Shown here one piece after another: positions 114 through 19,339 of a stretch of 64,000 nt of DNA. The position numbers and the translations under genes are program-made. How positions within the stretch are numbered: the first letter of the stretch is position 1; the number at the start of each line of letters is the position of its first letter. Under the pieces are notes generated by a model that saw nothing but the letters and a program-made list of their open reading frames with translations, did not search any database and was not told the DNA's origin. Source of the DNA: Desulfobacterales bacterium (GTDB lineage Bacteria; Desulfobacterota; Desulfobacteria; Desulfobacterales; Desulfosarcinaceae); NCBI GenBank assembly GCA_016218685.1, contig JACRDD010000028.1:1-64000 (forward strand). Reading direction: 5' to 3'.

Positions 114-1073
114 CTATAGATTTATGCACTCCTTAGTAATTGGCGATTCAAAATAAAAGTCGAGGATCGTTCCGAGTTCTATCGTCTGCGGTGTAAAGAC
201 GCCATATAGCGGCGACACGATTACATCCTCAAAAATGGTACTCTGTTTTACAATCCCATAAGGGAAGTTCCCTGTAGGGCTCTTGGTATAAACAAGATCT
301 CCAAAATGAACGCGATTATAGTTTGAGGTATTGTTTGCGGAAAATGACCTTCCGAGATGTTCAATTTGATTTATCAAGCTCTTATGTACCGAAACCGAAA
401 AGACCTTCTCATCTCCACTGCTCAATTCGCCGTGCTCACTTAAACAATCCGAGAGGCGGACTTTAGCCCAACCGTTTTTCTCAATTGCCTTTTTTGATTG
501 GAACAATTGTTGTCTATAAGCAGCAAAGAGATTTTCCTTCGCCGCAATCAGCCGCTCGGTCTTTTTGATGGCAGTATCCCAAGTGGAAAGCAGGTCGGCA
601 ATGGCGGTTTGTTCGGGAAGCGGCGGAAGTAAAATAGGTAATTTTTTTAAGGTTTCCTTATTCAATTTGTAGCGGCCTGCACCCTGGCGGCTTAAAAAGG
701 ACTTTACATTCCTGTGTTTGAAGAAATGATAAAACCATTGAATGGTGCAACTATCAGTTGCTTCGATGATATGTGCATGATTATTAACATTGAATTTTCC
801 GCCAACAAGCAATGTTTGCTCTTTGTCTTTAAATTTTAAAAAGTGATCGCCATCCTCTCCGATTAAGGCAAAGTTTCCATCGGCAAGGTATTCATTAATA
901 TATCCTAATATGCCGGTAGGCCCGTAGTAAGGGAAAACACCTTTCATTTTTGCTCGTTCTTCAACTGATATTGGCTTTCGCAGATCGTTTCTAATTTTGC
1001 ATGCTTGCCCAACCGATTTCAATTTCCAGCCATCTGGAACTTTTACCTTTTGCTTCAAAAGATGATCATTCAT
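114..1073 (-). CDS. hsdS: Type I restriction specificity subunit HsdS, C-terminally truncated
   Basis: HsdS gives a type I restriction-modification complex its DNA target through two target recognition domains (TRDs) joined by conserved helices that contact HsdM. Residues about 10-148 form the first TRD. The conserved hinge LPPLPEQTAIADLL starts at residue 149 and runs into a helix to about 193. A second TRD begins near 205 and includes GDLVYTKSPTGNFPYG. The frame stops at residue 319 inside that TRD, so the second conserved helix usual in 380-450-residue HsdS proteins is absent. The 113 bases left to the window edge give no continuation that I recognise in any frame. The ATG lies inside the 3' end of the upstream rhuM fragment (8-bp overlap), so it is the last visible gene of the leftward operon. 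The family is clear. Whether it is functional or frameshifted is open. Confidence 0.8.
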   Translation of the reverse strand: MNDHLLKQKVKVPDGWKLKSVGQACKIRNDLRKPISVEERAKMKGVFPYYGPTGILGYINEYLADGNFALIGEDGDHFLKFKDKEQTLLVGGKFNVNNHAHIIEATDSCTIQWFYHFFKHRNVKSFLSRQGAGRYKLNKETLKKLPILLPPLPEQTAIADLLSTWDTAIKKTERLIAAKENLFAAYRQQLFQSKKAIEKNGWAKVRLSDCLSEHGELSSGDEKVFSVSVHKSLINQIEHLGRSFSANNTSNYNRVHFGDLVYTKSPTGNFPYGIVKQSTIFEDVIVSPLYGVFTPQTIELGTILDFYFESPITKECINL

Positions 1074-1389
1074 ACATTGCCTTCTGAATCACTTCTTCCG
1101 AAATGATCATGCCCAGGTTGTAAAAATCTAGGTTGCGACGAACCTCCCGGCCGCCCTCTTTTTGAACCGTCAAATATTTTTTGACAGTTGCCTCCGGCCT
1201 TAGCTCCCTCTCTTCAAATATGTTTTGAACATGGTGGCTTATGTTCTGTTTGGAGGTTTGATAGCGTTCGGCCATCATCTGCTGGGTGAGCCAAACCGTT
1301 TCGTCTTCCAGGCGGACATCGAGTTTCACCTGGCCGTCCTCGGTCTGGTAAACAATCAATTCTCCTCTTGCCGGAAAGTCGGCTTTCAT
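1066..1389 (-). pseudogene. RhuM-family protein, N-terminal fragment (107 aa)
   Basis: RhuM-like proteins are about 330 residues long, of uncertain function, and are often carried inside type I restriction operons. This fragment keeps the typical opening: a GELIVYQTEDG start, the DETVWLTQQMMAERY helix-turn-helix-like segment, and the ATVKKYLTVQKEGGREVRRNLDFYNLGMI (split here as ATVKKYLTVQ and NLDFYNLGMI) region at about residues 65-92. It then runs into an unrelated ten-residue tail and stops where hsdS begins. About two thirds of the usual protein is missing, which suggests a deletion that fused its front to the hsdS start. Its ATG overlaps the dinD stop by 4 bp, so it is still coupled within the operon. 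The fragment could be expressed, but activity is doubtful. Confidence 0.7.
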
Positions 1390-2255
1390 TTGGAGGTACC
1401 CTTTTTCAGCTTTTTGGGTAATTCAGTTCCTTTGATCATGCGCTTTTCATCGGACTTCACCCGGCGTTGCAGTTTTTGCAAATCCTCTTCCGGTGGTAGA
1501 TCTTCGGGTTTAATGCCTCGATCAACCAGCATATTGCGGACGCTGAGATTATTTTGCACATGTTCGCCAGTTATGGAGGGCTCGCCCATGAGATCATTCT
1601 GGTTTACATTGAAATTGGTGATCTCAGTGGCCAGGTTCTTGGCGGCAATTGTTACAGTGGGGAGAAAATCGGCCAGCGGCCTTTTCTCTGGCACCCCCAG
1701 CCTATTTTTCATGGCATGAGTGGTGTTACCACCGAAAAGGGCGGCATCCCCCTTGGATCGGATGCGACCGAAACCTTGATCATCGACGCCGCGCTCGTAG
1801 ATATTCCTCGAAAGCTCGGTTTCCGATTCTTTGAGCTTTTGACGGGCTTGAAACCGCTCTTGTAAGTGGATGCGCTCCTCAACGATCTCTTGCTTGCGAG
1901 TTTGAATGGCAAAATAGCTTTGGGCAAAGGCAATCTGGTCTTTGCGAGAATCGCCATTCTGGGCAATGAGGTAGCAGGCATACCGCGTCAGCATGATATC
2001 ATCTATAGGGCGCTCGGCACCGGAACCGATTTGGACCATTTTGCTGACGTCAGCAAAATGGTTGTCCACCTCGACACCGGATTTGTCGCAAGCTGTTTTG
2101 GCCTTTTCAATGACTTCCAGGAAATTTCGCCATTGCGAGTACCCTAAAACAGTTTGCAAATCTCTAGCGTACCAGAACTCGACATCGGAGTCAGGCACAG
2201 CTTGAACGATGGCATCGAACTGTTTGTGCAGTTGAATCATGGAATCCTTTTTCAT
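1386..2255 (-). CDS. dinD: DNA damage-inducible protein DinD homologue
   Basis: 289 residues, close to the 274 of E. coli DinD, an SOS-induced protein reported to inhibit RecA filaments. Residues about 20-110 form the BRO-N-like domain, seen as the segments EFWYARDLQTVLGYSQW and DIMLTRYACYLIAQNGD. A helical middle (about 125-175) and the tail segment RGIKPEDLPPEEDLQKL near 245-262 are also DinD-like. It overlaps the hsdM stop and the next start by 4 bp each (ATGA), so it is translated with the restriction operon. DinD genes embedded between hsdM and hsdS are a recurring arrangement, and a role in modulating restriction or recombination at damaged DNA is an inference from that context. No LexA box was recognised at this gene; it would be read from the operon promoter. 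Confidence 0.85.
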   Translation of the reverse strand: MKKDSMIQLHKQFDAIVQAVPDSDVEFWYARDLQTVLGYSQWRNFLEVIEKAKTACDKSGVEVDNHFADVSKMVQIGSGAERPIDDIMLTRYACYLIAQNGDSRKDQIAFAQSYFAIQTRKQEIVEERIHLQERFQARQKLKESETELSRNIYERGVDDQGFGRIRSKGDAALFGGNTTHAMKNRLGVPEKRPLADFLPTVTIAAKNLATEITNFNVNQNDLMGEPSITGEHVQNNLSVRNMLVDRGIKPEDLPPEEDLQKLQRRVKSDEKRMIKGTELPKKLKKGTSK

Positions 2256-3808
2256 CTTTGGATCTCCTTCAGCTTTTCAGCCATCTTGGCCCTGACTTCG
2301 ACCAACTCCTTTTCCAAGGCGTCGATCTCTAGTTGCACGGCGTCGATGTCGATCTCTTCTTCCTCTTCGAAGGTGTCCACATAGCGGGGGATGTTGAGGT
2401 TGAAATCGTTTTCCTTGATTTCTTCGAAGGCGGCCACATGGGCGTATTTGCCCACGTCCTTGCGCTCTTTGACCGTGGCAAGGATTTTTGCAATGTGGTC
2501 ATCGGAGAGCGCGTTATGGTTCTTGCCGGGTAAAAACTCCCGGCTGGCGTCCACGAAGAGTACGTCTTTGCGATTCTGTTTGGCGCCGCCGTTTTCCCGG
2601 CTCCGGTCAAACACCAGGATGGCCACGGGGATGGAGGTGGTGGGAAAAAGGTTGCCCGGCAGGCCCACCACGGCATCGAGCAGGTTCTCTTCGATCATCT
2701 TCTGCCGGATGCGGCCCTCGGCCGCGCCCCGGAACAGTACGCCGTGGGGCACCACCACCGAGACGCGCCCCTCCTTTTCCAGGGCCGCTTCCACCATGTG
2801 GCTGATAAAGGCCCAATCCCCTTTGGACTTGGGCGGCACACCGCGCCAGAAGCGGTTGTAGCGGTCGGCCTGGGCTTCATTGGCCCCCCATTTGTCCAAG
2901 GAAAAGGGCGGATTGGCCACCACGATGTTAAACTTCATGAGCCGGTCGTTTTCCACCAGGGTCGGACTGGTGAGGGTGTTGCACCATTCGATGCGGGCGC
3001 TGTCGGCCTTGTGCAGAAACATGTTCATGCGCGCCAGGGCCCAGGTGCTGCCGTTGACCTCCATGCCGAACAGCGCGTAGTTGCTGTCACCCACTTCCCG
3101 GGCCGCTTCGATGAGCAGGCCGCCCGAGCCGCAGGCCGGATCGCAAATGCGGTTGCCGGATTTGGGGCCGGCCAGCTTGGCCACCAGCGCCGACACCTTA
3201 TGCGGCGTGTAGAATTCGCCGGCCTTTTTGCCGGCATCCGAAGCAAAGCGCTCGATCAGGTATATATAGGTGTTGCCGATGACATCTTCGGAAACCCGGC
3301 TGGGGCTCATGTCGAGCTGGGGCTTGTGAAAATCCTCCAGCATCAGTTTCAGGCGGCGATTGCGGTCCTTGGTTTTGCCGAGGTTGGCCTCGCTGTTAAA
3401 GTCAATGTTGCGGAAGACTCCTTCAAGCTTAACCTTGTTGGCTTCTTCGATGGCATCCAGGGCGATGTTGATCAGCTCGCCGATTTTGGCGGAGTTGCGG
3501 CGCTCATACAGGCTGTAGAAATCGGCCAGGAAGCGGTCTTCGATCTCACCGGTATCGGGATCTTTCAATTCGGCCACGGGCAGCACGAAACGTTCGCGTT
3601 CCAATTTACGGCGGATGCGCACATCGTCATCGCCGTATTGCTGACGGTATTTTTCGTAATGATCTTTCCAGACATCCGAGATGTACTTCAAAAAGAGCAT
3701 CACCAGGATGTAATCCTTGTAGCCGGCCGCATCCATCACGCCGCGGAAAGTATCGCAGACCGCCCAGGCCGCGTTGCTGATGTCTTTCTGGTCGATTTTG
3801 GCGTTCAT
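2252..3808 (-). CDS. hsdM: Type I restriction-modification system methyltransferase subunit HsdM
   Basis: N6-adenine DNA methyltransferase that methylates the host target using S-adenosylmethionine, in complex with HsdS. The 518-residue length is normal. The N-terminal helical bundle spans about residues 8-160, GEFYTPHKVSALVAKL begins near 197, the S-adenosylmethionine motif DPACGSGG lies at 223-230, and the catalytic motif NPPF lies at 299-302. The C-terminal helix rich in Glu and Lys (about 470-518) is typical of the HsdS-contacting end. It starts on an ATG that overlaps the stop of a 57-residue gene by 4 bp and ends overlapping dinD by 4 bp. All motifs are intact, so methylation activity is likely if a working HsdS is present. 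Confidence 0.95.
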   Translation of the reverse strand: MNAKIDQKDISNAAWAVCDTFRGVMDAAGYKDYILVMLFLKYISDVWKDHYEKYRQQYGDDDVRIRRKLERERFVLPVAELKDPDTGEIEDRFLADFYSLYERRNSAKIGELINIALDAIEEANKVKLEGVFRNIDFNSEANLGKTKDRNRRLKLMLEDFHKPQLDMSPSRVSEDVIGNTYIYLIERFASDAGKKAGEFYTPHKVSALVAKLAGPKSGNRICDPACGSGGLLIEAAREVGDSNYALFGMEVNGSTWALARMNMFLHKADSARIEWCNTLTSPTLVENDRLMKFNIVVANPPFSLDKWGANEAQADRYNRFWRGVPPKSKGDWAFISHMVEAALEKEGRVSVVVPHGVLFRGAAEGRIRQKMIEENLLDAVVGLPGNLFPTTSIPVAILVFDRSRENGGAKQNRKDVLFVDASREFLPGKNHNALSDDHIAKILATVKERKDVGKYAHVAAFEEIKENDFNLNIPRYVDTFEEEEEIDIDAVQLEIDALEKELVEVRAKMAEKLKEIQR

Positions 3809-3978
3809 TTCTCTTTCCTGACTCCTTTAAAGGGATTTCCATCGGATTTCTGATCTATAAAACGCCCGGTCTCGGTGTCGCGTTTGACCCATGTTTCCGA
3901 CTTGGGGTTGAACACTTGGGACCGATCCTTGACGGCGCCGATTCGGTGCCCGTCACCCTTTGGTGGATTGATAGCCAT
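3805..3978 (-). CDS. Small conserved protein upstream of hsdM (57 aa)
   Basis: An open frame of 57 residues beginning MAINPPKGDGHRIGAVKDRS and rich in Lys, Arg, Asp and Gly. It is preceded by a strong Shine-Dalgarno AAGGAGG, and its stop overlaps the hsdM ATG by 4 bp (ATGA). The spacing to the upstream half-HsdS stop is only two bases. From memory, short proteins with a very similar sequence sit directly before hsdM in other bacteria, but I cannot verify that here. The body has the repeated feel of a basic nucleic-acid-binding peptide (QVFNPKSETWVKRDTETGRF), with no named domain. Translational coupling suggests it is made in step with HsdM. Confidence 0.75.
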   Translation of the reverse strand: MAINPPKGDGHRIGAVKDRSQVFNPKSETWVKRDTETGRFIDQKSDGNPFKGVRKEK

Positions 3979-3980
3979 AA

Positions 3981-4556
3981 CTATCCTCCTTCAACTGATT
4001 GCAACAGTCTTGTAGAAACGAAATTCTTGCGGCGCTCGGCGATCCTTTTTAAAAGACGTTGTTCTTCTTCAGCCAAAGCGGCTACTTCAAGGATCGCTTG
4101 CTGATGATCAAGCGGCGGCACACTCACCTCGAGTTTTTCCAGAGTCTGCTTGTCGATCATTTTCTGGGCGGTACCTTTGGCCCGGCTTGCCAGGAAAAGC
4201 TGGGCCGAGGGCTGGTTGATATACCAGGCAAGGTAGGCCGGCAGCACGGCCTGCGCATCGACCCTGATCCTGATTAAAGGCGAAGCCACAACAGCGGCTC
4301 CCGGGTTTTCGGTGAGCAGGGCGGCGGTGGTCATTTGGCCGCGGGATCGAAAAACGATGTCGCCGGGTCTGACAAGGTGATGTTTCTGGACATCACCCAT
4401 ATCGATCCGCATCAACTCGGAGCAGTCGACGAGATTGTCCTCGTTCAGATCCTTCATTTGAAGGACCGCCGTGCGCCCCTTGTTCATGAAATCCAATCGA
4501 CTTCTAAAAGAATAACCCATTTGGATGGATGCGATCTGGTTGAGGGCGGTTCTCAT
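3981..4556 (-). CDS. Single-TRD HsdS-like specificity protein (191 aa)
   Basis: A half-size specificity protein: one target recognition domain (about residues 5-145) followed by the conserved VPPLDHQQAI hinge at 146-155 and a basic coiled-coil helix to about 185. Full HsdS proteins carry two such units; half-subunits elsewhere can dimerise to make a complete specificity module. The start is the ATG at 4556, because it has AGGAG six bases upstream, whereas the 32 extra residues in the longer frame are low-quality sequence that would overlap the promoter. It is the first gene of the restriction operon, preceded by a sigma70-type promoter and followed two bases later by the 57-residue gene. It may supply a second TRD to the truncated HsdS at the operon end (inference). 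Confidence 0.75.
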   Translation of the reverse strand: MRTALNQIASIQMGYSFRSRLDFMNKGRTAVLQMKDLNEDNLVDCSELMRIDMGDVQKHHLVRPGDIVFRSRGQMTTAALLTENPGAAVVASPLIRIRVDAQAVLPAYLAWYINQPSAQLFLASRAKGTAQKMIDKQTLEKLEVSVPPLDHQQAILEVAALAEEEQRLLKRIAERRKNFVSTRLLQSVEGG

Positions 4557-4587
4557 TCGACTCCTTGCTATAACAGCGTTGCAGCAA

Positions 4588-4616
4588 TATTTATTCCGAA
4601 CCCGTCTAAATGTCAA
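4588..4616 (-). promoter_or_regulatory. Sigma70-type promoter of the restriction operon
   Basis: On the minus strand TTGACA (4611-4616) is followed after exactly 17 bases by TAAATA (4588-4593). It lies about 32 bases upstream of the half-HsdS ATG at 4556. The -35 is a perfect consensus match; the -10 is moderate. This fits one promoter driving the half-HsdS, small protein, hsdM, dinD, rhuM fragment and hsdS chain. The rest of the gap (4617-4785) is AT-rich and I see no gene in it. Confidence 0.6.
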
Positions 4617-4785
4617 CACCAAAAATATCTGAAACGCCATTTTAGCAAACAATGTGTCTGGGATTTTAATCTTGAAGGCGATAGGGGCGTAAACTGATTA
4701 ATTTTTAGTAAGGAACAAATGGGATAACGGCCCGTGCAGTTGGTAGGCAGATGCGCCGGAAAGCAGCGTTAATTTTCCTGCGCGG

Positions 4786-5328
4786 CTAAACCGTGGCAAT
4801 TGGCTTTGTGTCGGTGCGCGGGACGCCATAGGTCAAGAGCAATTCGAGCAATTCGTAATCTGCCAAAGCGCCTCGACCCGCTTTGGCGAAGCGTCCCTGA
4901 AGGCGATGACACTTTACTCCATCCTCCGTAATGCCCAAGCGCTCGGCCAGCATCTTGCGCGTTAAAGTGGGCTCTGCCGTTAAAAGGGCCAGGATTTTTT
5001 CTTGGGTAGTATTCTGGGTAGTTTCTTGGGCAGCGGGCTCCCCTTCACCCTCCTGTTCTAAAAAGGACGGCCGCTCGAACGAAACGATGAACAGGTTGCC
5101 GACTTCGCGAAAGGCGGCGTCCGGCGCGTGTTTGAGGATCAAGGGCATGCCGCGGCCCCAGGCTTCCGTCATCTGGATGCGGCGAAACAGGTCGGCGATC
5201 AGGGGGTTGCAGCGTTGGGAGACGTTGCCTTGGCGCAGGTCGTCGATGGTCAGGTTGCCGTAGAGGCGGCCGGGGTGGCGGATCTCCACGCGGTTTTTGA
5301 ACGGTGTGTCCCAGGCCGGCTTGGTGCG
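4786..5328 (-). pseudogene. Mosaic pseudogene: deleted AlbA_2 ATPase paralogue joined to a RadC N-terminal piece
   Basis: This frame is a decayed copy of the intact AlbA_2 protein encoded at 5887-7206. It starts at the equivalent of residue 160 (RTKPAWDTP versus RAKLTWDTP), lacks residues 169-281, then follows FKNRVEIRHPGRLYGN through the winged-helix domain to GITEDGVK. There the homology ends and the frame continues as a RadC-type N-terminus (RFAKAG, then ALADYELLELLLTYGVPR), stopping inside the conserved RadC helix-hairpin region. It reads in the same frame as the 27-residue hsdR remnant just upstream, separated by a TAG. Three gene families joined end to end in under 650 bases is best explained by illegitimate recombination. 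An internal ATG at 5289 could still give a 167-residue product, but no function is likely. Confidence 0.7.
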
Positions 5329-5412
5329 CTAGGCAAATTTGTGGACCACATCATATCCGGTCCCGGCAAACCACTGCAGACAGAGCTTTTCGAGCCGCGC
5401 TTCGTTAACCAT
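5329..5412 (-). pseudogene. Remnant of a type I restriction endonuclease HsdR N-terminus (27 aa)
   Basis: A short frame MVNEARLEKLCLQWFAGTGY followed by DVVHKFA and a TAG stop. It resembles the extreme N-terminus of HsdR proteins, which begin with a Glu/Leu-rich helix and a tryptophan-containing W(L/F)..LGY segment. Its ATG overlaps the stop of the upstream winged-helix gene by 8 bp, the usual close spacing of this island. Everything after residue 27 is missing and the frame runs into the AlbA_2-derived pseudogene. The call rests on a very short match, so it is tentative. If right, an hsdR gene once stood here, upstream of the modification genes. Confidence 0.45.
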
Positions 5413-5890
5413 TGCCTTTGTCCTTTACCGCAAGATAGGCCTGCTCCGGATGGTTCGGCTTGGTGGGATATCGATATCTGAGCTTTTTGGCACGCACCAA
5501 GGGCTGAAGATAGCTTTTGCGCAGAAATTCACCGGAACGATTCAGGATCTGTTCAAGCTGCTCTAGTGACAACGGTTGGCGTCGGCACAGATCAAGAATG
5601 ATCTGTTCCATCTCTTTTTTGGGAAGCTTCTTTTTATCCGTTGCCGGTGCGGCGATGGAGGCCATTATATCCAAAGGTCCGGAGCTTGGGGCCAAAGGTC
5701 CGGACCTCTGCTCCAAAGGTCCGGAGTTCTCGCCGAACATGACCTCGATGTCGTCTTTGCGGCCGATCTCCGGCAGGAAATAGATCGTCCCCCGCCCCAC
5801 GCCACTTTGCCCCGCTTCGCGATCCAACTGCCACCCGCCGATGTTGCGCAAAAACAACAAGGGTTCCATCTGATTCCAAGGGTGGTTCAT
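5405..5890 (-). CDS. Winged-helix-type protein with a 7-residue SGPL repeat, coupled to AlbA_2 gene
   Basis: 161 residues, starting at an ATG that overlaps the stop of the AlbA_2 gene by 4 bp and has GGAGG upstream. The front (residues 1-55) looks like the end of a winged-helix unit (GVGRGTIYFLPEIG). The middle carries three in-frame copies of an SGPL-containing heptad, and the rear (about 95-155) reads MEQIILDLCRRQPLSLEQLE then LRKSYLQPLVRAKKLRYRYP, ending near NHPEQAY. That rear segment matches, from memory, the C-terminal domain of AlbA_2/AAA_4 'putative ATP-dependent helicase' proteins. It is therefore probably the detached C-terminal part, or a partner subunit, of such a regulator. Substrate and target are unknown. 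Confidence 0.6.
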   Translation of the reverse strand: MNHPWNQMEPLLFLRNIGGWQLDREAGQSGVGRGTIYFLPEIGRKDDIEVMFGENSGPLEQRSGPLAPSSGPLDIMASIAAPATDKKKLPKKEMEQIILDLCRRQPLSLEQLEQILNRSGEFLRKSYLQPLVRAKKLRYRYPTKPNHPEQAYLAVKDKGNG

Positions 5891-7206
5891 CTCTTCGTTA
5901 CCTCCCAACGGCCCCCTCTATCCGGTCCTTCGCGTCGGATTGTTCCCGCTGATTTGAGTTTTTCCAGATGATATTTAATGCCATCCTGCGTAATGCCCAA
6001 CCGCTGGGCCAACTGTTTGCGTGTTAAAGTGGGCTCTGCAACTAATAGAGCCAGAATTTTTTCCTGGGTAGTTTTCTGGGTAGTCTCCTGGGTAATGGCT
6101 TCCTCTTCCAACCCCTGCTCTGAAAATGAAGGTCGATTGAACGCGGCGATGAACAGGTTGCCGACTTCGCGAAAAACCACGTCGGGCGCGTGTTTCAGGA
6201 TCAGGGGCATGCCGCGGCCCCAGGCTTCCACCATGGAGATGCGGCGGAACAGGTCGGCGATCAGGGGGTTGCGGCGTTGGGAGACGTTGCCTTTGCGCAG
6301 GTCGGCGATGGTCAGGTTGCCGTAGAGTCGGCCGGGGTTGCGGATCTCCACGCGGTCTTTGAACACCGCCACTTGAACGTAGTCCGGGTCATGGTAGTCG
6401 CGGTGGCAGAAGGCGTTGATGACGGCTTCGCGCAGGGCTTCCACGGCGATTTCGGGCACGTCCACGCGGCGCAATCCTTCCAGGCGCATGCCGATGTGGA
6501 TGTTCTTGAGGATATACTTCTGGGCTTCTTCGATCAGTTCGAGGATGTCGCCGTCGAAGTCATGCCGGTCGATGATGGTCGAACTCTCGGTGCTCAGAAA
6601 GACGGCGCAGCGCAGTTGCAGGGGAGTCGTGCCGAAGAAGAGCCGGGCCGGATTGAGCAGCCGGCGCTCCTGGATCAAGGCCAGCTTGGCGAGGGCGTTC
6701 CGGGGCGTGTCCCAGGTCAGCTTGGCGCGCTGGACAAAGCTTTCGATCTTGGAGGCGTCCAGATCGGCCAGGGAGAACTCACCGGGTTGATGGTCCCAGC
6801 GCGATGCTTCTCGCCCTTGGGAGGCGATAAGCTCTTTCAACTGTTTGACGCTCAACTGGCGGTCTTCATCCGCCACCCGCATGTACGCCCGACCATAAGC
6901 GAAATAGGGCGTGTCGTCGCCGTTGAACGCGACTTTGATGCAGCGTTTACCCTGAAGGATGACCTCTGAAATCTTCGGGAAGATTTTGGGTTCGATGTGC
7001 GCCGCAATGGCCTGGGAGAGGTCGCGCAGCGTTTTTTCATTGACGTCGAGCCCGACCACCGCGCCGCTGTTGCTCACGCCGAACCAGAGTGTTCCGGCCT
7101 GGTGCTTGTTCAATATGGCCGCCATCGAAACCAGCCCCTGCTTGGCCTCGGCCAGGCTCTTTTTGAATTCGACGGTTTCGTTCTCCTTGAGCGGCGGCTT
7201 GTCCAT
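5887..7206 (-). CDS. AlbA_2 (schlafen-like) ATP-binding transcriptional regulator
   Basis: 439 residues, intact. The AlbA_2/schlafen-type domain spans about residues 5-130 (ETVEFKKSL; GTLWFGVSNSGAVVGLD). A histidine-kinase-like ATPase domain of the AAA_4/HATPase_c_4 family covers about 245-360 (EALREAVINAFCHRDY at 257-272; RNPGRLYGN at 289-297; AWGRGMPLI at 328-336). The C-terminal winged helix lies at about 380-439 (TRKQLAQRLGITQDGIKYHL). Proteins of this build are often called RecG-like helicases in databases but lack helicase motifs. They are common in defence and mobile islands and probably act as nucleotide-responsive DNA binders. The ATG at 7206 is preferred over the GTG at 7227 because it has AAGGGAAG upstream. 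It is coupled to the following winged-helix gene by ATGA. Confidence 0.8.
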   Translation of the reverse strand: MDKPPLKENETVEFKKSLAEAKQGLVSMAAILNKHQAGTLWFGVSNSGAVVGLDVNEKTLRDLSQAIAAHIEPKIFPKISEVILQGKRCIKVAFNGDDTPYFAYGRAYMRVADEDRQLSVKQLKELIASQGREASRWDHQPGEFSLADLDASKIESFVQRAKLTWDTPRNALAKLALIQERRLLNPARLFFGTTPLQLRCAVFLSTESSTIIDRHDFDGDILELIEEAQKYILKNIHIGMRLEGLRRVDVPEIAVEALREAVINAFCHRDYHDPDYVQVAVFKDRVEIRNPGRLYGNLTIADLRKGNVSQRRNPLIADLFRRISMVEAWGRGMPLILKHAPDVVFREVGNLFIAAFNRPSFSEQGLEEEAITQETTQKTTQEKILALLVAEPTLTRKQLAQRLGITQDGIKYHLEKLKSAGTIRREGPDRGGRWEVTKR

Positions 7207-7255
7207 CTTAGCTTCCCTTAAAAGCACAAGGTTACGGTGAAGCAGTAAACTTCTC

Positions 7256-7629: not shown

Positions 7630-7724
7630 AGGCATTCCGGCGGCTGAGTTGATATTGATAGGAAATGATAGTGCATGATAGCGGGATGAGCTGAAAAAGC
7701 AATCTTAAATTCGTGAAAACAGAC

Positions 7725-7755
7725 GGCAACCGTCAAATATTGTTTGACGGTTGCC
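7725..7755. repeat. Perfect 13-bp inverted repeat hairpin, also part of a 28-nt direct repeat
   Basis: GGCAACCGTCAAA at 7725-7737 and its exact reverse complement at 7743-7755 enclose the loop TATTG. Bases 7728-7755 match 1165-1192, inside the rhuM fragment, at 26 of 28 positions in the same orientation. It lies upstream of the excisionase-like gene in the 7630-7915 gap, which holds no gene I can support. It could be a protein-binding site, a leftover of rhuM, or a recombination site. Confidence 0.6.
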
Positions 7756-7832
7756 ACCATTGCGTCGCGCAGTAGAACTATACAATGCGCGTTGAAGCGA
7801 CAAGAAATTCTTGTGAGTTCGTTTCAGGATCG

Positions 7833-7915: not shown

Positions 7916-9547
7916 CTATACCGTATACAGCACCACCAAACACCGAGTCGGCTGCGTCGAAAGGCTCTTGAGCTTGTGGGGCACGTCGGAGTTGAAGTGG
8001 ATCGATTCGCCGGGTTTGAGGGTGTGCTCTTTGGTGTCGAGGGTCAGGCCCAGGTCGCCTTCGAGGACGTAGATGAACTCTTCGCCGTCGTGTTTGTAGG
8101 CCACGGGTTTGTGGTCGCGCTGGGCTTCGATGGTGATCATGAAGGCGCGCAGGTGGCTGTTGGCGGCTTCGGGGGTGAGGGTGACGTAGCTGTAGGCCTG
8201 GGTGCGCTGGTAGTAGGCCTGGGCGCGGCGGTCGCGGATGGCGGCGCGCTCTTCCTTGCGCAGGAAGGTGCCGGGGTCGATCTTCATGGCCTGGGCCATG
8301 CCCAGGATGAAGCTGACCGGCGGGGAGAGTTTGTCCTCTTCCACGTGGGCGATGAACTCGGGGCTCTGGCCGGTGGCCTGGGCCAGCTCTTCCTGGCTCC
8401 AGTTGCGCGCCTCGCGCAGTTGGCGCACGATGGCGCCGAAGCCGGCCTTGGGGCTTTCCGGTTGCGGCTGGTCGGGGGTCAGGGCGCAGGTGGCGTCGGC
8501 CAGGCGGCGCAGGGCGCTCTGCTGGGCGCGCTGGTTGAGGATGGGGAGAAGTATTTTGGCGTCGGCCACGATGCCGATGTCGGCCACCTGGAAGATGGGG
8601 GCCGAGGGGTCGCGGTCGATGGCCACGATGGTTTCGGCTTCCATGACGCCGGCGGTGTACTGCACGGCGCCCGAGGTGCCGGCGGAGACGAGCAGCTTGG
8701 GCCGCACGGTCTTGCCGGTCTGGCCGATGAGGCGCTCTTCTTCCACCCAGTGGTTCATCACCGGCGGCCGGGTGGCGCCCACTTCGCCGCCCAGGGCCCC
8801 GGCCAGTTCGCGCACCAGGCCGAAGCCCTGCATGTCGCCCAGTCCGGCGCCGCCGACGACCACGGTCTCGGCCTCTTCCAGGCGCTTGCCTTCGGCCTCT
8901 TCCAGGCCGCGCTGCACCAGGCTCAGGCCTTCGGGCAGGGCGATGCGGGATAATGCTATGGTTTCGATGCGGCCCATGGCGCTGGGATTGACCGGGATCT
9001 GCACACCGTGGGGCGGCACGGTGACGAAGGCCGTGGGCCAGCCGTCGGCCAGCACGATGTCGGCCAGGATCTGGCCGCCCCAGGCCGGGCAGCGGCCCAC
9101 GAAGCGGCCGTTTTCCATGACCGGCGCCACGCAGTCGGCGATCAGGCCGGCCTGGCAGCGCTGGGCCCCGATGGCGGCGGTCTCGCGGCCGAAGTCGTTG
9201 AGCGGCAGGAAGATCAGCCAGGGCTTGCGTTGCTGGACGAAGTCGGCCAGCACGCGGGCGTAGAGATCGGCCCGGGGCGCGGCCAGCAGGGGATGTGTCA
9301 GGCAGTAAACGGTCTGGGCGCCGATGGCCGCAGCCTGGGCGGCGGCCTCCTGCAAGGCCACGCAGGCGCTGGGATCGTTCCGCGGCGTGGCCGCGGGCGT
9401 GCCGGCCGGCGCGCCGATCAGGATCATGCTCACCGAAGTTTCGGCCTCTTTGGCCAGGGTCAGGGCCTTGACCAGCACCTTTTGACTGGCGCGCCACTGC
9501 TGGGCGGTGCGCAGGTCGCCGAACGTCCAGATCTCTGCTCTGCTCAT
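7916..9547 (-). CDS. etfA: Electron transfer flavoprotein alpha subunit fused to an XRE-cupin regulator
   Basis: 543 residues, against about 320 for a normal EtfA. Residues 1-205 form the N-terminal ETF domain. Residues about 225-345 form the FAD-binding domain, with KLLVSAGTSGAVQYTAG at 284-300 and APIFQVADIGIVADAK at 316-331. From 367 a classical XRE helix-turn-helix follows (GFGAIVRQLREARNWSQEEL and AQATGQSPEFIAHVEEDKLS), and residues about 465-543 form a cupin-2 domain (HDGEEFIYVLEGDLGLTL; SDVPHKLKSLS). EtfA with EtfB carries electrons from acyl-CoA dehydrogenases. The extra half resembles stand-alone XRE-cupin repressors. The ATG overlaps the etfB stop by 4 bp, and the long upstream extension of the frame is antisense-like low-quality sequence and is not used. 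The frame is uninterrupted through the junction, so the fusion looks real. Confidence 0.9.
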   Translation of the reverse strand: MSRAEIWTFGDLRTAQQWRASQKVLVKALTLAKEAETSVSMILIGAPAGTPAATPRNDPSACVALQEAAAQAAAIGAQTVYCLTHPLLAAPRADLYARVLADFVQQRKPWLIFLPLNDFGRETAAIGAQRCQAGLIADCVAPVMENGRFVGRCPAWGGQILADIVLADGWPTAFVTVPPHGVQIPVNPSAMGRIETIALSRIALPEGLSLVQRGLEEAEGKRLEEAETVVVGGAGLGDMQGFGLVRELAGALGGEVGATRPPVMNHWVEEERLIGQTGKTVRPKLLVSAGTSGAVQYTAGVMEAETIVAIDRDPSAPIFQVADIGIVADAKILLPILNQRAQQSALRRLADATCALTPDQPQPESPKAGFGAIVRQLREARNWSQEELAQATGQSPEFIAHVEEDKLSPPVSFILGMAQAMKIDPGTFLRKEERAAIRDRRAQAYYQRTQAYSYVTLTPEAANSHLRAFMITIEAQRDHKPVAYKHDGEEFIYVLEGDLGLTLDTKEHTLKPGESIHFNSDVPHKLKSLSTQPTRCLVVLYTV

Positions 9548-10323
9548 GATCCCATCACCCCTTTGGCGGTCAGAATTTCTACCAGGGCCTCCACCTGCTC
9601 CCTGGGTTCGCCGGTCAGCATGCGGCAGGTGCGTTTGCGCACGATCTTCTGCAGCTTGGCCACCCGGGTGGGCGAGCCGACCAGGCCGGCGCGGTCGTTG
9701 GCGATGCCCAGATCGGCGAGCCGCCAGCTCTGCACATCCAACTGGTCGTGGGCCTGGGCGATGCCGCCCAGGGCAATCGGCCGGGGGGCGTAAAAGCGCG
9801 GATGGATGCTCACCGCCGCCGGAACGTTGACCCGCCACAGCTCCTGCCAGTCGTCCATCAGACGCGTGATCTCCCAGGCATGCTCCCGGGGCTCCATCTG
9901 CTTGACGCCCGAGACGAAGGGGATCGCAAGCAACGTGGCGGTCTGGGGACCCACCTGGCCGGTGTCGCTGTCCGAGGTGCGCGTGCCGAAGAAGACAAAA
10001 TCATAGGGCGAAAGGCGCTGGACGGCTGCGGCCAAAACCCGGGAGGTGACCAGGGTGTCCGAGCCGGCCAGGGCCGCATCGCAGACCAATACGGCGCGGT
10101 CGGCGCCCATGGCCTGGGCCTCGGCCAGGGCCTCGACGCCCACGGGCGGGCCCATGGACAGAACGGTCACCGTGCCGCCCAGCGTCTCTTTGATGCGCAG
10201 GGCCGCTTCCAGGGCCGGGCGGTCGAAGGGGTTCAACTCGCTGTTTTCCGGCGTGCGGCGGCCGACCCCGTCCGGGGCGGTGCGTACGACCGATTTGATG
10301 CACACGATGCTGTGGATGGGCAT
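9544..10323 (-). CDS. etfB: Electron transfer flavoprotein beta subunit
   Basis: 259 residues, the usual size. It pairs with EtfA, binds AMP or a second flavin, and takes electrons from the upstream-encoded dehydrogenase. Recognisable features are the opening IVCIKSVVRT, the NPFDRPALEAALRIKE segment typical of EtfB, a GPP loop and FGTRTSDSDTGQVGPQ. The ATG at 10323 is chosen because AAAGGTAAAGG precedes it; a GTG at 10338 overlapping the dehydrogenase stop is possible. It overlaps etfA by 4 bp. The order dehydrogenase, etfB, etfA in one leftward transcript matches a dedicated acyl-CoA oxidation unit. Confidence 0.93.
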   Translation of the reverse strand: MPIHSIVCIKSVVRTAPDGVGRRTPENSELNPFDRPALEAALRIKETLGGTVTVLSMGPPVGVEALAEAQAMGADRAVLVCDAALAGSDTLVTSRVLAAAVQRLSPYDFVFFGTRTSDSDTGQVGPQTATLLAIPFVSGVKQMEPREHAWEITRLMDDWQELWRVNVPAAVSIHPRFYAPRPIALGGIAQAHDQLDVQSWRLADLGIANDRAGLVGSPTRVAKLQKIVRKRTCRMLTGEPREQVEALVEILTAKGVMGS

Positions 10324-10334
10324 GCCTTTACCTT

Positions 10335-11483
10335 TCACGATCCGGCCAATACTTCCCGGGCGATGACCATGCGGTGCACTTCGGAGGTGCCTTCGTAGAT
10401 GCGCGTCACCCGGGCGTCGCGGTAGTAGCGTTCCACGGCATAGGCCTTGGAGTAGCCGTAACCGCCGTGGATCTGCACGGCCAGATCGGTGACCAGGCAG
10501 GCCGCCTCGGCCGCGAAGAGCTTGGCCTGGGCCGCGGCCTTGCCCACCGGCTCGCCCTGATCCTTGAGCTGGGCTGCGCGGTAGACCAGCAGGCGCGCCG
10601 CGTCCACCTGCGTCGCCATGTCGGCGATCATCATCTGAATGGCCTGGTGCCGGCCGATGGGCACGCCGAACTGCTGGCGCTGGTTGGCGTAGCGCACCCC
10701 TTCTTCCAGGGCCGCCTGGGCGATGCCCAGGGCCTGGGCCGCGATGCCGATGCGGCCGGTGTCCAGGGCCGCCAGGCCGATGGCCAGTCCCTGGCCGGTG
10801 CGGCCCAAAAGATTCTCCCTGGGCAGCAGGCAGTCATACAGGCGGATGGACGAGACCGGGTTGGCGCGCATGCCGCACAGATCCTCCAGGTCGCCCACCA
10901 CAAAGCCCTTGGTGCCGCGTTCGGCCACCACCACGCTGATGCCCTTGCGGCCGGCGGAAGGATCGGTGCGGGCGAAGATCAGGCAGATGTCGGCGATGCC
11001 GCCGTTGGTGACGAAGACCTTGTTGGCGTTGACCCGCCACTTTCCGTCCTCGGGCAGGGCCGTGGCCGTGATGGCGCTGGCGTCCGAGCCCACGTTGGGT
11101 TCGGTGAGGCAGAAGGCGCCGATCTTCTGGCCGGCGGCCAGGCCCGGCACCCAGCGTTGATGCTGCTCGCGGCTGCCGAAGGCCAGAATGGGATAGAGGG
11201 CCACGCTGTTGTGCACGCTCAGGCACAGGCCGATGGAGCCGCTCACCCGGGAGATCTCTTCGATGGTGACGGCGTAGCTGAGGCTGTCCAGGCCGGCGCC
11301 GCCCAGTTCCTGGGGCGCCTGGATGCCGAAGTAGCCCAGGCGGCCCATCTTCTCCATCACTTCCCAGGGAAAGCGGGCCTCCTGGTCGATCTCGGCGGCG
11401 ATGGGGCGCAGCTCCTGTTCGCAAAAGGCGCGCACGGTGCGGCGCAGCACGCGGTGCTTGGCATTCAAAAAGGGTTCGCTCAT
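10335..11483 (-). CDS. Acyl-CoA dehydrogenase
   Basis: 382 residues, the family norm. It is an FAD enzyme that introduces the 2,3 double bond into acyl-CoA and passes electrons to ETF. Visible signatures are FCLTEPNVGSDASAITATA (FAD/substrate loop), YANQRQQFGVPIGRHQAIQ, the C-terminal IHGGYGYSKAYAVERYYRD and TRIYEGTSEVHR, where the Glu of YEGTSE matches the catalytic base of short- and medium-chain enzymes. The start at 11483 has AGGAAAAGG upstream; the 67 preceding residues in the longer frame look non-coding. It leads the operon with etfB and etfA. Substrate chain length cannot be told; short-chain, glutaryl- or benzoyl-pathway acyl-CoAs are all possible. Confidence 0.93.
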   Translation of the reverse strand: MSEPFLNAKHRVLRRTVRAFCEQELRPIAAEIDQEARFPWEVMEKMGRLGYFGIQAPQELGGAGLDSLSYAVTIEEISRVSGSIGLCLSVHNSVALYPILAFGSREQHQRWVPGLAAGQKIGAFCLTEPNVGSDASAITATALPEDGKWRVNANKVFVTNGGIADICLIFARTDPSAGRKGISVVVAERGTKGFVVGDLEDLCGMRANPVSSIRLYDCLLPRENLLGRTGQGLAIGLAALDTGRIGIAAQALGIAQAALEEGVRYANQRQQFGVPIGRHQAIQMMIADMATQVDAARLLVYRAAQLKDQGEPVGKAAAQAKLFAAEAACLVTDLAVQIHGGYGYSKAYAVERYYRDARVTRIYEGTSEVHRMVIAREVLAGS

Positions 11484-11754
11484 GGGGACCTTTTCCTGCG
11501 GACCGCCGTGGGGCGGCGGGTTTTGAATGGCCGGGACATTACCCGTTCCGGCCGCCATTGTAAATACTTGATTGGGGCTCTCTGGAGGCGTCAAATTTCC
11601 AGCGCCAGGCAAGGGTCGAGACCGGTAAATGCCGGTTCCCCGGGCGTTCGCTTGATGGCCGCCCTTGGCTTGCTTTTTGCTCATTCCCCTCCAGTACGGC
11701 CGGAGACCCCCGGCTCCGGCCGATGCGCTCGTTGCCGCGGAAAGATGGAATCAG

Positions 11755-14695: not shown

Positions 14696-14766
14696 CCCCC
14701 GTCTAAAGTGCGCCCGGCACAAGACCGATAATAGGTTCGGTGAATCTTGGGCCGGAGTGTTTCCGC

Positions 14767-16836
14767 ATGACTGAAAAAGGTACGATCCTAGAGCTGGTCA
14801 AGCGCGTCAAAGCGCTGGAGACCGAGCAGGAGAAGACGCACAGGGCCCAAGTTGCGCTCAAGGAGAGCGAGGAGCGTTTTCGGCTCATATCCGAAACCAT
14901 CCATTTCGGGGTCTTCGAGATCGACGACACCGGCAGTTGCCTTTACACCAATACCCGCTATCAGGAGATCTTCGGCATCAGCCTGGTGCAGAGCCTGACC
15001 ACGCCCTGGCATGCCTTCGTGGCCGCCGAGGATCGGACCGCCATCGCCGGCCGCTGGCAAGCGGCCGTCAACGAGCTCAAGTCGTTCTCCGAAGATTGCC
15101 GTATCGGCGACAATCCCGCTAAAACCCGCTGGGTGCATGTGCATGCCTCACCGGTCTTTTCGGATGCCGGCGCCCGTTACACCGGCACCGTGGAAGAGAT
15201 CACCGGCCGCAAGCAGAACGAAGATGAACTCAAAAAGGCCAAGGAAGCGGCCGAAATGGGCAGCCGCGCCAAGAGCCAGTTTCTGGCCAACATGAGCCAT
15301 GAAATCCGCACGCCCATGAACGGCATTATCGGCTTTACCGATATGCTGCTGGAAACCGGGCTCGATGAAGTCCAGGCCGATTACACCAACACCATCAAGC
15401 GCAGTGGCGAAGCGTTGCTGCTGCTGATCAACGACATCCTCGACTTTTCCAAGATCGAGGCCGGCGAGATGGAATTCGAGGCCATCGACTTCGATCCCGA
15501 ACTGCTGGTTTACGATGTGTGCGAGCTGGTGCGGCCCAAGATCGGCACCAAACCCATCGAGCTGGTGTGCAACATCGATGACGATGTGCCGCCCCTGGTC
15601 AAGGGCGATCCGTTGCGCTACCGCCAGGTGATCACCAACCTGTTGGGCAACGCGCCCAAGTTCACCGAGCAAGGTGAAATCTGCGTGCACCTTTCGGTGG
15701 AGGCCCAGACCGAGCATGCGCTGCACCTGCATACCACGATCAGCGACACGGGCATCGGCATTCCCCAGGACAAGCTGGGAGCGGTGTTCGAGGCCTTTCA
15801 GCAGGCCGACAACTCGACCTCGCGCAAATACGGCGGCACCGGCCTGGGCCTGTCCATCTGCAAGACCCTGGCGAATATGATGGGCGGCGATACCTGGGCC
15901 GAAAGCGAAGTGGGCAAAGGCAGCGTCTTTCATTTTACGGCCTGCCTGCAAAAGACCGAGGCCCAGTTGCCGGCCCGGGTGGCGCCCGCCTCGCTGGCCG
16001 GCAAGCGCGTGTTGGTGGCCGACGACCATGCCGGCACGCGCCAGATCCTGGAGCGCATGCTCGCGGCGGCCCAGATGCAGGTGGTCAGTCTCGAGGGCGG
16101 GCGCCTGGTGACGCCGACCCTGATCCAGGCCCAGGCCCAGGGCGCACCCATCGATATCTGCCTGATCGATCTGGGCATGCCCGGCATGAATGGCTATCAG
16201 GTGGCCGAAAGCCTGCGGGGCGCCCTGGAACATCCGCCCTACATGATCGCCCTCTCGTCGGCCCTGGAGCGCGACGCCGCCAAGTGCGAGGCCGCCGGCT
16301 TCGACGGTTTCCAGGCCAAGCCGGTGCGTCGGCCCCGCCTGGTGCAGATGATGGGCCGGCTGCTGGGCGAAGGGGCCAAAGCCAAGCAGGACCCGGGCGA
16401 AAACGTCGGCCGCAAGATGCACACCCAGTATACGGTGCGCGAAGCCTTGAAGCATTCGGTGAGTATTTTGCTGGCCGAAGACAATCCGGTCAACCAGAAG
16501 CTGGCAACCCTCATGCTGGGCAAGGCCGGCTACCAGGTTGAAGTGGCCGTCAACGGCCGCGAGGCCGTGGAGAAGTATTCGGCCGCTCCCGAAAAGTACG
16601 ACCTGATCTTCATGGATGTGCAGATGCCGGAGATGGACGGCCAGGAGGCCTCGCGCAAGTTGCGGGAATTGGGGCATACGGATGTGCCCATCGTGGCCAT
16701 GACCGCCAACGCCATGAAAGGCGACCGCGAAATGTGCCTGGCGGCCGGCATGAACGATTACGTGACCAAACCGATCAAACGCGAACAGGTTTTCGAAATG
16801 ATCGCCAAATATGTCTTAAACAGGAGCGCTGCATGA
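14767..16836 (+). CDS. Hybrid sensor histidine kinase, PAS-HisKA-HATPase-REC-REC
   Basis: 689 residues with no membrane segment, so cytoplasmic. A short coiled coil (about 1-33) leads into a PAS domain (about 34-150). HisKA follows with the phosphoacceptor H178 in [12 protein letters not shown], then HATPase (N-box [11 protein letters not shown]-boxes SDTGIGIP and [10 protein letters not shown]). Two receiver domains follow: the first at about 415-535 ([18 protein letters not shown]), the second at about 570-685 ([30 protein letters not shown]). The N-box carries Pro where Ile or Val is usual. The ATG at 14767 is chosen; a GTG nine codons upstream is possible. It overlaps the Hpt gene by 4 bp, which makes a His-Asp-His phosphorelay from kinase to Hpt likely. 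The signal is unknown. Confidence 0.92.
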
Positions 16837-17150
16837 ACATCAAGGAGTTGTCGGAAAACCTCGGGTTGGAAGAAGACGAGTACCGCGAACTGATCGATCT
16901 TTTCATAGCGTCCGGGGGCGGCGACTTTCAAAAGATCGTGGCGGGCATGGCCGCCGGCGACGCCGACCAGGTCATGCGCGCCGCCCATACCATCAAGGGC
17001 GCCGCCGGCAACTTGGGGCTCGTCGATGTGAGCGCCGCGGCCAAGGTCATCGAAGCGCGGGCCATGAACAACCAGTTGGGCGAACTTGGCGCGGCGGTGC
17101 GGGCGTTGGAAGGCCTGATCAAACAGATCGAGGACGAGGCCGGCGCCTGA
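16833..17150 (+). CDS. Histidine phosphotransfer (Hpt) protein
   Basis: 105 residues, a lone Hpt four-helix bundle. The phosphoacceptor is H52 in RAAHTIKGAAGNLGL, a textbook Hpt motif. It starts on ATG overlapping the stop of the hybrid kinase by 4 bp, so it is the coupled downstream relay for that kinase. The final output regulator is not next to it. The single-domain receiver at 13030-13410 is one candidate recipient (inference). Its stop is one base away from the stop of the convergent MASE3 kinase, leaving no room for a dedicated terminator. Confidence 0.92.
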   Translation: MNIKELSENLGLEEDEYRELIDLFIASGGGDFQKIVAGMAAGDADQVMRAAHTIKGAAGNLGLVDVSAAAKVIEARAMNNQLGELGAAVRALEGLIKQIEDEAGA

Positions 17151-17151
17151 T

Positions 17152-19125: not shown

Positions 19126-19339
19126 GCGGGTCAACCTCTTTCAACTGGAAGGGTTCATTGGGGCAGGCACCGTCAAGGGGCATATGCGGACTTTCCTCAC
19201 CCTATAGCACTCGGGGGCGATGCGTCAAATTGTATCAAGCCGGTACTGATCATCGATAAAAAGGCAATCGCAAACTTCGGCCGGCAATGATAGGCTGAGG
19301 CCGATCACCGCGCAAACCTTGCTTGCAAAGGATTCTGAT

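Follow-up and report, generated by a model that had tools for sequence, protein, structure and literature searches.

An electron transfer flavoprotein alpha subunit joined to an XRE-cupin module is conserved in many sulfate-reducing and related bacteria

The window analysed here, i.e., the whole 64,000-nucleotide stretch of DNA from a member of the Desulfobacterales, raises the question of why the alpha subunit of an electron transfer flavoprotein (ETF), a kind of protein usually treated as a passive carrier, should share a gene with a helix-turn-helix (HTH) and a cupin, the parts of an XRE-cupin regulator. The original prediction of a single open frame of 543 residues comprising EtfA, an XRE HTH and a cupin-2 domain proved correct, and the domain limits it gave agree with Pfam to within a few residues. 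The frame can be translated on the minus strand from an ATG at 9547 to a stop codon ending at 7916, with zero internal stop codons. Per Pfam, the first part of the product is an EtfA with both domains above their curated cut-offs (ETF, residues 20-199, 65.5 bits versus 26.7; ETF_alpha, residues 223-301, 95 bits versus 27), and the remainder carries an HTH and a cupin in the order expected of XRE-cupin proteins, again above the cut-offs (HTH_31, residues 370-424, 39.4 bits versus 27; HTH_3, residues 374-426, 36.9 bits versus 23; Cupin_2, residues 472-539, 59.6 bits versus 27.2). In the AlphaFold model of the whole protein (mean pLDDT 88.0, pTM 0.57), the individual predicted domains are sound and their mutual placement is not; the HTH-cupin module folded alone yielded a weaker model (75.2). 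A plain regulator beside an ordinary ETF was ruled out, as one frame encodes one protein. The features of the locus and its relatives are collected in Table 1.

Table 1. Features of the fusion locus in the window and of stand-alone XRE-cupin genes near three related cassettes (the latter in the coordinates of their own loci).
Feature	Position	Strand	Basis or remark
etfA-XRE-cupin fusion gene, 543 aa	7916..9547	-	ORF and Pfam; same architecture in relatives
EtfA part, residues 1-345, ETF and FAD domains	8513..9547	-	Tyr297 where compared EtfA have His
XRE helix-turn-helix, residues 370-432, acidic	8252..8440	-	Pfam, charge, model
Cupin_2 region, residues 465-543	7919..8155	-	Pfam; invariant His486, Glu490, His524, Tyr484
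etfB, 264 aa as listed, GTG start	9544..10338	-	ORF list and Pfam
Short-chain-type acyl-CoA dehydrogenase, 382 aa, first gene of the cassette	10335..11483	-	Pfam, nearest matches
Candidate promoter, TTTACA-17-TAATGT then CC	11534..11564	-	Alignment of same-genus upstream regions
Terminator-like hairpin, 16 pairs, after the fusion gene	7722..7758	-	Hairpin scan
Stand-alone XRE-cupin, locus L107	7365-7961	-	80 bases upstream of the dehydrogenase gene, divergent
Stand-alone XRE-cupin, locus L073	5352-5897	-	Beside another dehydrogenase gene
Stand-alone XRE-cupin, locus L106	646-1524	-	Further from the cassette

The same EtfA-HTH-cupin architecture was found elsewhere, in genomes and genera of the class and in cultured species. 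Full-length, stop-free copies are present in 20 of the 60 genomes searched, its own genome included. At 1e-62 or better, 57 genomes out of 389 in the class gave matches, a few of them contig-cut or split, which cover 23 of its 148 genera; at the level of the phylum a profile matched 23 of 395 genomes at 1e-100, one of these matches (G690) being a 353-residue form that lacks the module. Among the loci from named genomes (the best 80 of 168 confirmed stretches), 75 hold an ORF of the fused cluster of at least 500 aa. Hosts include the cultured species Desulfatitalea alkaliphila and Desulfosarcina widdelii, as well as Desulfosarcina alkanivorans and Desulfosarcina cetonica, Desulfatibacillum alkenivorans, strain NaphS2 and Desulfamplus, and because cultured hosts exist, the role of the fusion is testable; the nearest record among the matches listed, from an uncultured Desulfatitalea, is 93% identical. 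The fusion is real, old and conserved in many sulfate-reducing and related bacteria. A sequencing error or chance frame was ruled out, as the fusion recurs across the class and in cultured species. Some copies are imperfect: that of one same-genus genome (G002) is split by a frame change and a TGA (contig C6, 675195-676818), which is either a genuine break or an assembly error, that of G021 has one internal TAA, and those of G004 and G010 are cut by contig ends. Some record titles carry the labels of other phyla (Nitrospirota, Myxococcota and Fibrobacterota metagenome bins), which are given here as in the titles only. The titles, abstract openings and passages returned by our literature search contain no description of this fusion, and none is described in the passages on sulfate reducers (PMC5109826, PMC2702500) and Syntrophomonas (PMC4324140).

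We next consider whether the added module is maintained. Across the fused set (82 rows, 80 distinct), the commonest residue of a position has a mean share of 0.51 in the N-terminal part of EtfA and 0.71 in the FAD domain. The linker is lowest at 0.34, whilst the HTH reaches 0.64, residues 433-464 reach 0.68 and the cupin, the most conserved part of the set, reaches 0.76. For five same-genus copies plus one from another family (L050), pN/pS was 0.48, 0.33 and 0.80 for the N-terminal part, FAD domain and linker, and 0.27, 0.21 and 0.15 for the HTH, residues 433-464 and the cupin; against the single closest relative, dN/dS was 0.13, 0.17 and 0.39, and 0.11, 0.21 and 0.07, respectively. The HTH and the cupin are therefore under purifying selection at least as strong as that on the EtfA part, and the module is kept by selection.

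The EtfA part has the ETF and FAD domains of its nearest solved chains (7koe_B, 7qh2_A, 5ol2_A and 4kpu_A) and, like ordinary EtfA, shares its operon with etfB and an acyl-CoA dehydrogenase partner. The EtfA FAD-pocket motif consists of Arg260, Gly-Gln-Thr-Gly-Lys and Ser-Gly-Ala-x-Gln, and the fused rows retain it: R260 and T277 are present in 82 of 82, Q276 in 81 and K279 in 74, while S292, G293, A294 and Q296 are each present in all 82. Where the fusion departs from ordinary EtfA, apart from the C-terminal XRE-cupin module itself, is position 297 (codon 8657-8659), which holds Tyr in 75 of the 82 fused rows and Phe in the other 7 (Tyr 75 and Phe 5 of the 80 distinct sequences) and never His, in contrast to His in six of six other EtfA compared. 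The EtfA of 14 unfused cassettes have His in 10 cases and Tyr in 4. The equivalent His presumably contacts the flavin in human ETF, and an altered flavin potential in the fused EtfA would be a reasonable inference from the substitution. The best matches of EtfA and EtfB include bifurcating complexes, with NCBIfam equivalog cut-offs not reached. A different extension is seen in 6fah and 7qh2, which we take to be EtfA with an added iron-sulfur domain; there the extra domain carries electrons, whereas here a regulator-type module sits at the C-terminal end.

The start of the fusion gene overlaps the etfB stop codon by 4 bases, and etfB, from its listed GTG start, in turn shares 4 bases with the dehydrogenase gene; because of these overlaps, we read the dehydrogenase gene, etfB and the fusion gene (hereafter, the cassette) as one operon. 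The three genes follow one another on a single strand in 58 of the same best 80 of 168 stretches, and etfB and the fusion gene in 65; some of the remaining loci are cut by contig ends or had a gene missed in ORF picking. Both the overlaps and the retained order bear out the initial placement of the fusion within an acyl-CoA dehydrogenase-etfB-etfA operon. The cassette is compact and its flanks are variable, with the next commonest neighbour cluster found in only 10 of the 80 loci. One representative was scanned from each of the 15 neighbour clusters present in at least 5 of the 80 loci: PHP, glutamate dehydrogenase, thiolase, Nudix, peptidase M15, ABC transporter, Dus, 3-hydroxyacyl-CoA dehydrogenase, enoyl-CoA hydratase, FdhD, cold-shock protein, PPDK_N, a receiver-only response regulator, a CxxCxxCC protein and one without a match. 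No separate HTH regulator was found among these 15 clusters. The cassette dehydrogenase is nearest to 5ol2_C, has short-chain and butyryl-type enzymes among its best matches, and reaches no NCBIfam equivalog cut-off. Terminator-like sites number 4 in the window versus 3.2 in shuffles, and the hairpin that follows the fusion gene has by far the longest stem.

A module related to the fusion's C-terminal part also exists as a separate protein of about 183 residues, 37-41% identical to it (19 loci). Among the matches listed, at least 46 genomes of the 60 searched have a protein of this stand-alone type, and a stand-alone query at 1e-30 matched 51 of 198 phylum genomes, fused copies counted. An acyl-CoA dehydrogenase gene adjoins the stand-alone gene in 19 of the 19 fetched loci that held it, and since the stand-alone gene abuts dehydrogenase genes, the module is linked to acyl-CoA dehydrogenation in two ways, in fused and in unfused form; the stand-alone protein offers a second handle on the same question. 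Clusters in these beta-oxidation gene rows include 3-hydroxyacyl-CoA dehydrogenase (17 members), thiolase (16 members) and, with 10 members, a mutase of about 1095 residues that combines B12-binding, MeaB and mutase domains. In two loci (L152:612-6606 and L150:2416-6743), the stand-alone gene belongs to a row that also has thiolase, 3-hydroxyacyl-CoA dehydrogenase and acyl-CoA dehydrogenase genes, to which L152 adds a mutase with B12-binding and MeaB domains. Three of the best 80 fused loci hold a stand-alone relative near the cassette as well (Table 1), and judging by its position the one in L107 looks to be placed as a regulator usually is.

The same gene order with a module-free EtfA of about 333 residues exists in other genomes. 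In one set of these, the dehydrogenase is 57-61% identical to that of the window and EtfA only 32-35%; in a second, the values are 52-62% and 35-40%, with one contig (L193) ending before the dehydrogenase gene. No XRE-cupin module was found in the examined stretch of 14 unfused EtfA of this cassette type. In the EtfA tree, the fused sequences do not form one clade, as the 14 unfused ones join a deep fused group with a support of 0.78; this group comprises five rows, three of them distinct, since two pairs come from the same contigs. The split may reflect two fusions or old losses. At L126:7047-8105 (the same contig as L192), an unfused EtfA of 352 residues nests among fused ones, which is likely a loss of the module with the cassette kept, judging by the tree. 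A second etfBA pair lies beside this unfused EtfA. The fused HTH-cupins form one clade against 19 stand-alone ones, with a support of 0.95.

Whether the module could act on DNA depends on its HTH, of which the original prediction had said that the DNA-binding helix looks intact. This stands for the fold and fails for the charged surface. The fold and core are kept (block-mean pLDDT 81-95 over residues 371-430 of the AlphaFold model), and the fused form scores 41.2 bits against HTH_3 versus 24.9 for this genome's stand-alone protein. Arg378 and Glu403, presumably a structural pair by analogy with the 434 repressor, are retained in all unmasked sequences, fused and stand-alone, and a conserved Ser/Thr-Pro-Glu at 395-397 would fit a helix cap. 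The mean net charge of residues 370-432, in contrast, is -1.9 in fused sequences (n=79; also -1.9 for the 77 distinct) versus +1.9 in stand-alone ones (n=19), a difference also seen in the helix 1-2 region (+1.2 versus +4.9) and in the stretch preceding the HTH (-0.9 versus +2.7). Recognition-helix position 401 is variable, and position 397 has an acidic residue (Glu or Asp) in 74 of 79 fused sequences. Among the 15 HTH_3 matches in its genome, the HTH segment of the window ranks as the most acidic; two other XRE-type segments there are slightly negative too. Selection speaks for specific DNA binding, whereas the charge and the missing operator described below speak against it, and on this footing DNA binding by the fused HTH is possible.

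As for a site at which the protein could bind, the TTTACA-17-TAATGT element or a close form of it (10 to 12 of 12) precedes the dehydrogenase gene in seven of seven same-genus loci and is lacking in L050, from another family. Allowing one mismatch, the full element occurs once in the genome, at 11564-11534; a consensus promoter scan reported no promoter, this candidate included. Forms scoring at least 10 of 12 were found in 10 of 59 loci, i.e., the seven same-genus loci and three others whose matches look like chance, and Desulfosarcina loci share a different conserved upstream block. A comparison of the upstream regions of the 59 loci with 20 shuffled sets, run with no positive control, detected no family-wide inverted repeat above shuffles. 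Half-sites of 4 and 5 bases were no more widely shared than in shuffles, those of 6 bases were common to at most two loci (one or two in shuffles), and those of 7 bases were common to two loci (one in shuffles), these being the near-identical pairs L060/L071 and L077/L096. A GG-N6-CC pattern around the -10 box of some loci was read by eye and is a lead only.

In the cupin, an alignment of 34 fused and stand-alone sequences shows no variation at His486, Glu490, His524 or Tyr484. A fold search with the module ranked first 1y9q, titled a transcriptional regulator, and next the iron enzymes HppE, HEPD and MPnS; the whole-protein model gave the same order below the ETF matches, and a profile search matched HppE at 2.2e-07 over positions 3-169. 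The module therefore has the HTH-cupin fold of the HppE/MpnS group. Since HppE-like iron enzymes have this fold, it can exist without being a repressor; HppE is named an epoxidase in PDB titles and, to our knowledge, does not act by binding DNA. Going by alignment end points and not residue by residue, His486, Glu490 and His524 likely correspond to the HppE metal ligands, which we take to be His138, Glu142 and His180. If these residues held iron or manganese, the module could be a metal enzyme or redox site of the HppE/MpnS kind, a third, metal-based ETF site in which the HTH would be structural. The fold matches and the invariant residues fit such a site, but we think it improbable: identity is very low (16-20% to HppE chains, 14-20% to the HppE/MpnS/HEPD set), many non-catalytic cupins keep such residues, and no phosphonate gene was found among the annotated neighbours. 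Still harder to credit is a neutral tail, i.e., a regulator module with no remaining function; one lineage did lose the module and keep the cassette, and two copies are disrupted (G002 and G021), but the strong purifying selection on the HTH and cupin and the top rank of the cupin in conservation make this very improbable.

The reading we favour, tentatively and at a probability of roughly 0.4, is a PutA-like autoregulatory electron carrier acting through DNA, within a three-gene cassette for acyl-CoA oxidation. The cupin would sense either a low-molecular-weight ligand from acyl-CoA metabolism or a signal that depends on a metal, and the XRE-cupin module would dimerise; while the carrier is idle, the HTH would repress the cassette's own promoter, and the ligand, or EtfAB engaging the dehydrogenase, would release repression. 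The electron carrier would thereby control how much of itself is made, in principle like PutA. The initial interpretation was borne out in part, namely for a genuine conserved fusion in this operon, the kinship of its module with an XRE-cupin protein encoded beside acyl-CoA dehydrogenase genes, and the selection on the module; DNA binding and redox control are putative. We counted in favour of autoregulation the domains above cut-off, the recurrence of the fusion across the class and phylum, the HTH_3 score, the 1y9q structure, purifying selection, the conserved cassette with variable flanks and no separate HTH regulator cluster, the genus promoter-like element, the stand-alone gene beside acyl-CoA dehydrogenase genes and its divergent placement in L107. 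Counted against it were the acidic HTH with its variable position 401 and acidic position 397, the lack of a family-wide operator, the loss of the module in the L126/L192 lineage and the 14 unfused EtfA without it. ETF-type carriers are also normally abundant, unlike a typical repressor. The DNA-binding step is the weakest link of this mechanism, and it is unlikely, in our estimate, that the ETF would itself be a transcription factor gated by the EtfA flavin together with the cupin metal or ligand, through which one branch of anaerobic fatty-acid oxidation would sense its electron flow at its own promoter. Nearly as likely as autoregulation is a sensor module whose HTH has ceased to bind DNA; the module would dimerise or dock EtfAB on the dehydrogenase, the cupin ligand or metal tuning electron transfer post-translationally and the HTH serving as a structural or protein-contact element. 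The lost basic surface and acidic recognition helix of the fused form, its rank as the most acidic HTH_3 match of the genome, the primacy of the cupin in conservation, the missing family-wide operator, and the occurrence of fused and stand-alone genes in dehydrogenase gene rows, as for an enzyme partner, all point this way. Against it, the HTH fold, core and spacing are kept with scores above the HTH cut-offs, its pN/pS is no higher than that of the FAD domain, two other XRE-type segments of the genome are slightly negative too, and at one locus (L107) the stand-alone relative is placed divergently beside the cassette, as a regulator would be. Either way, a conserved ETF with a sensor or regulator module would tie the electron flow of anaerobic beta-oxidation directly to control in sulfate reducers important for sediment carbon turnover, be it control of transcription or control of the electron-transfer complex.

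With the XRE-cupin regulator 1y9q the fusion shares the HTH-then-cupin order and a sequence and fold match over the full module; it differs from XRE-cupin regulators in being joined to EtfA and in its acidic HTH. The PuuR equivalog cut-off was not reached (NF007408, 42.3 versus 211 bits). HppE, MpnS and HEPD share the HTH-like and cupin fold and a likely His/Glu/His site, whereas no phosphonate gene was seen among the annotated neighbours of the fusion. The likeness to PutA proposed at the outset holds in principle, as passages of one paper (PMC5293562) describe trifunctional PutA as a catabolic flavoprotein that also has a DNA-binding domain, and does not extend to the domains, which are unrelated: PutA has ribbon-helix-helix, PRODH and P5CDH domains, and the Pfam scan of the fusion detected none of them. 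Membership of the PutA family itself was ruled out on the same Pfam result.

A plasmid search gave no match at 1e-40. After the cassette, a minus-strand row at 114-7227 holds Type I restriction-modification-like genes, i.e., HsdM and two proteins with HsdS specificity domains, together with a BRO-N protein and AlbA/RecG-like proteins. Upstream of the cassette, at 14740-19134, lie genes for two PAS-histidine kinases, one of which has a MASE3 membrane sensor.
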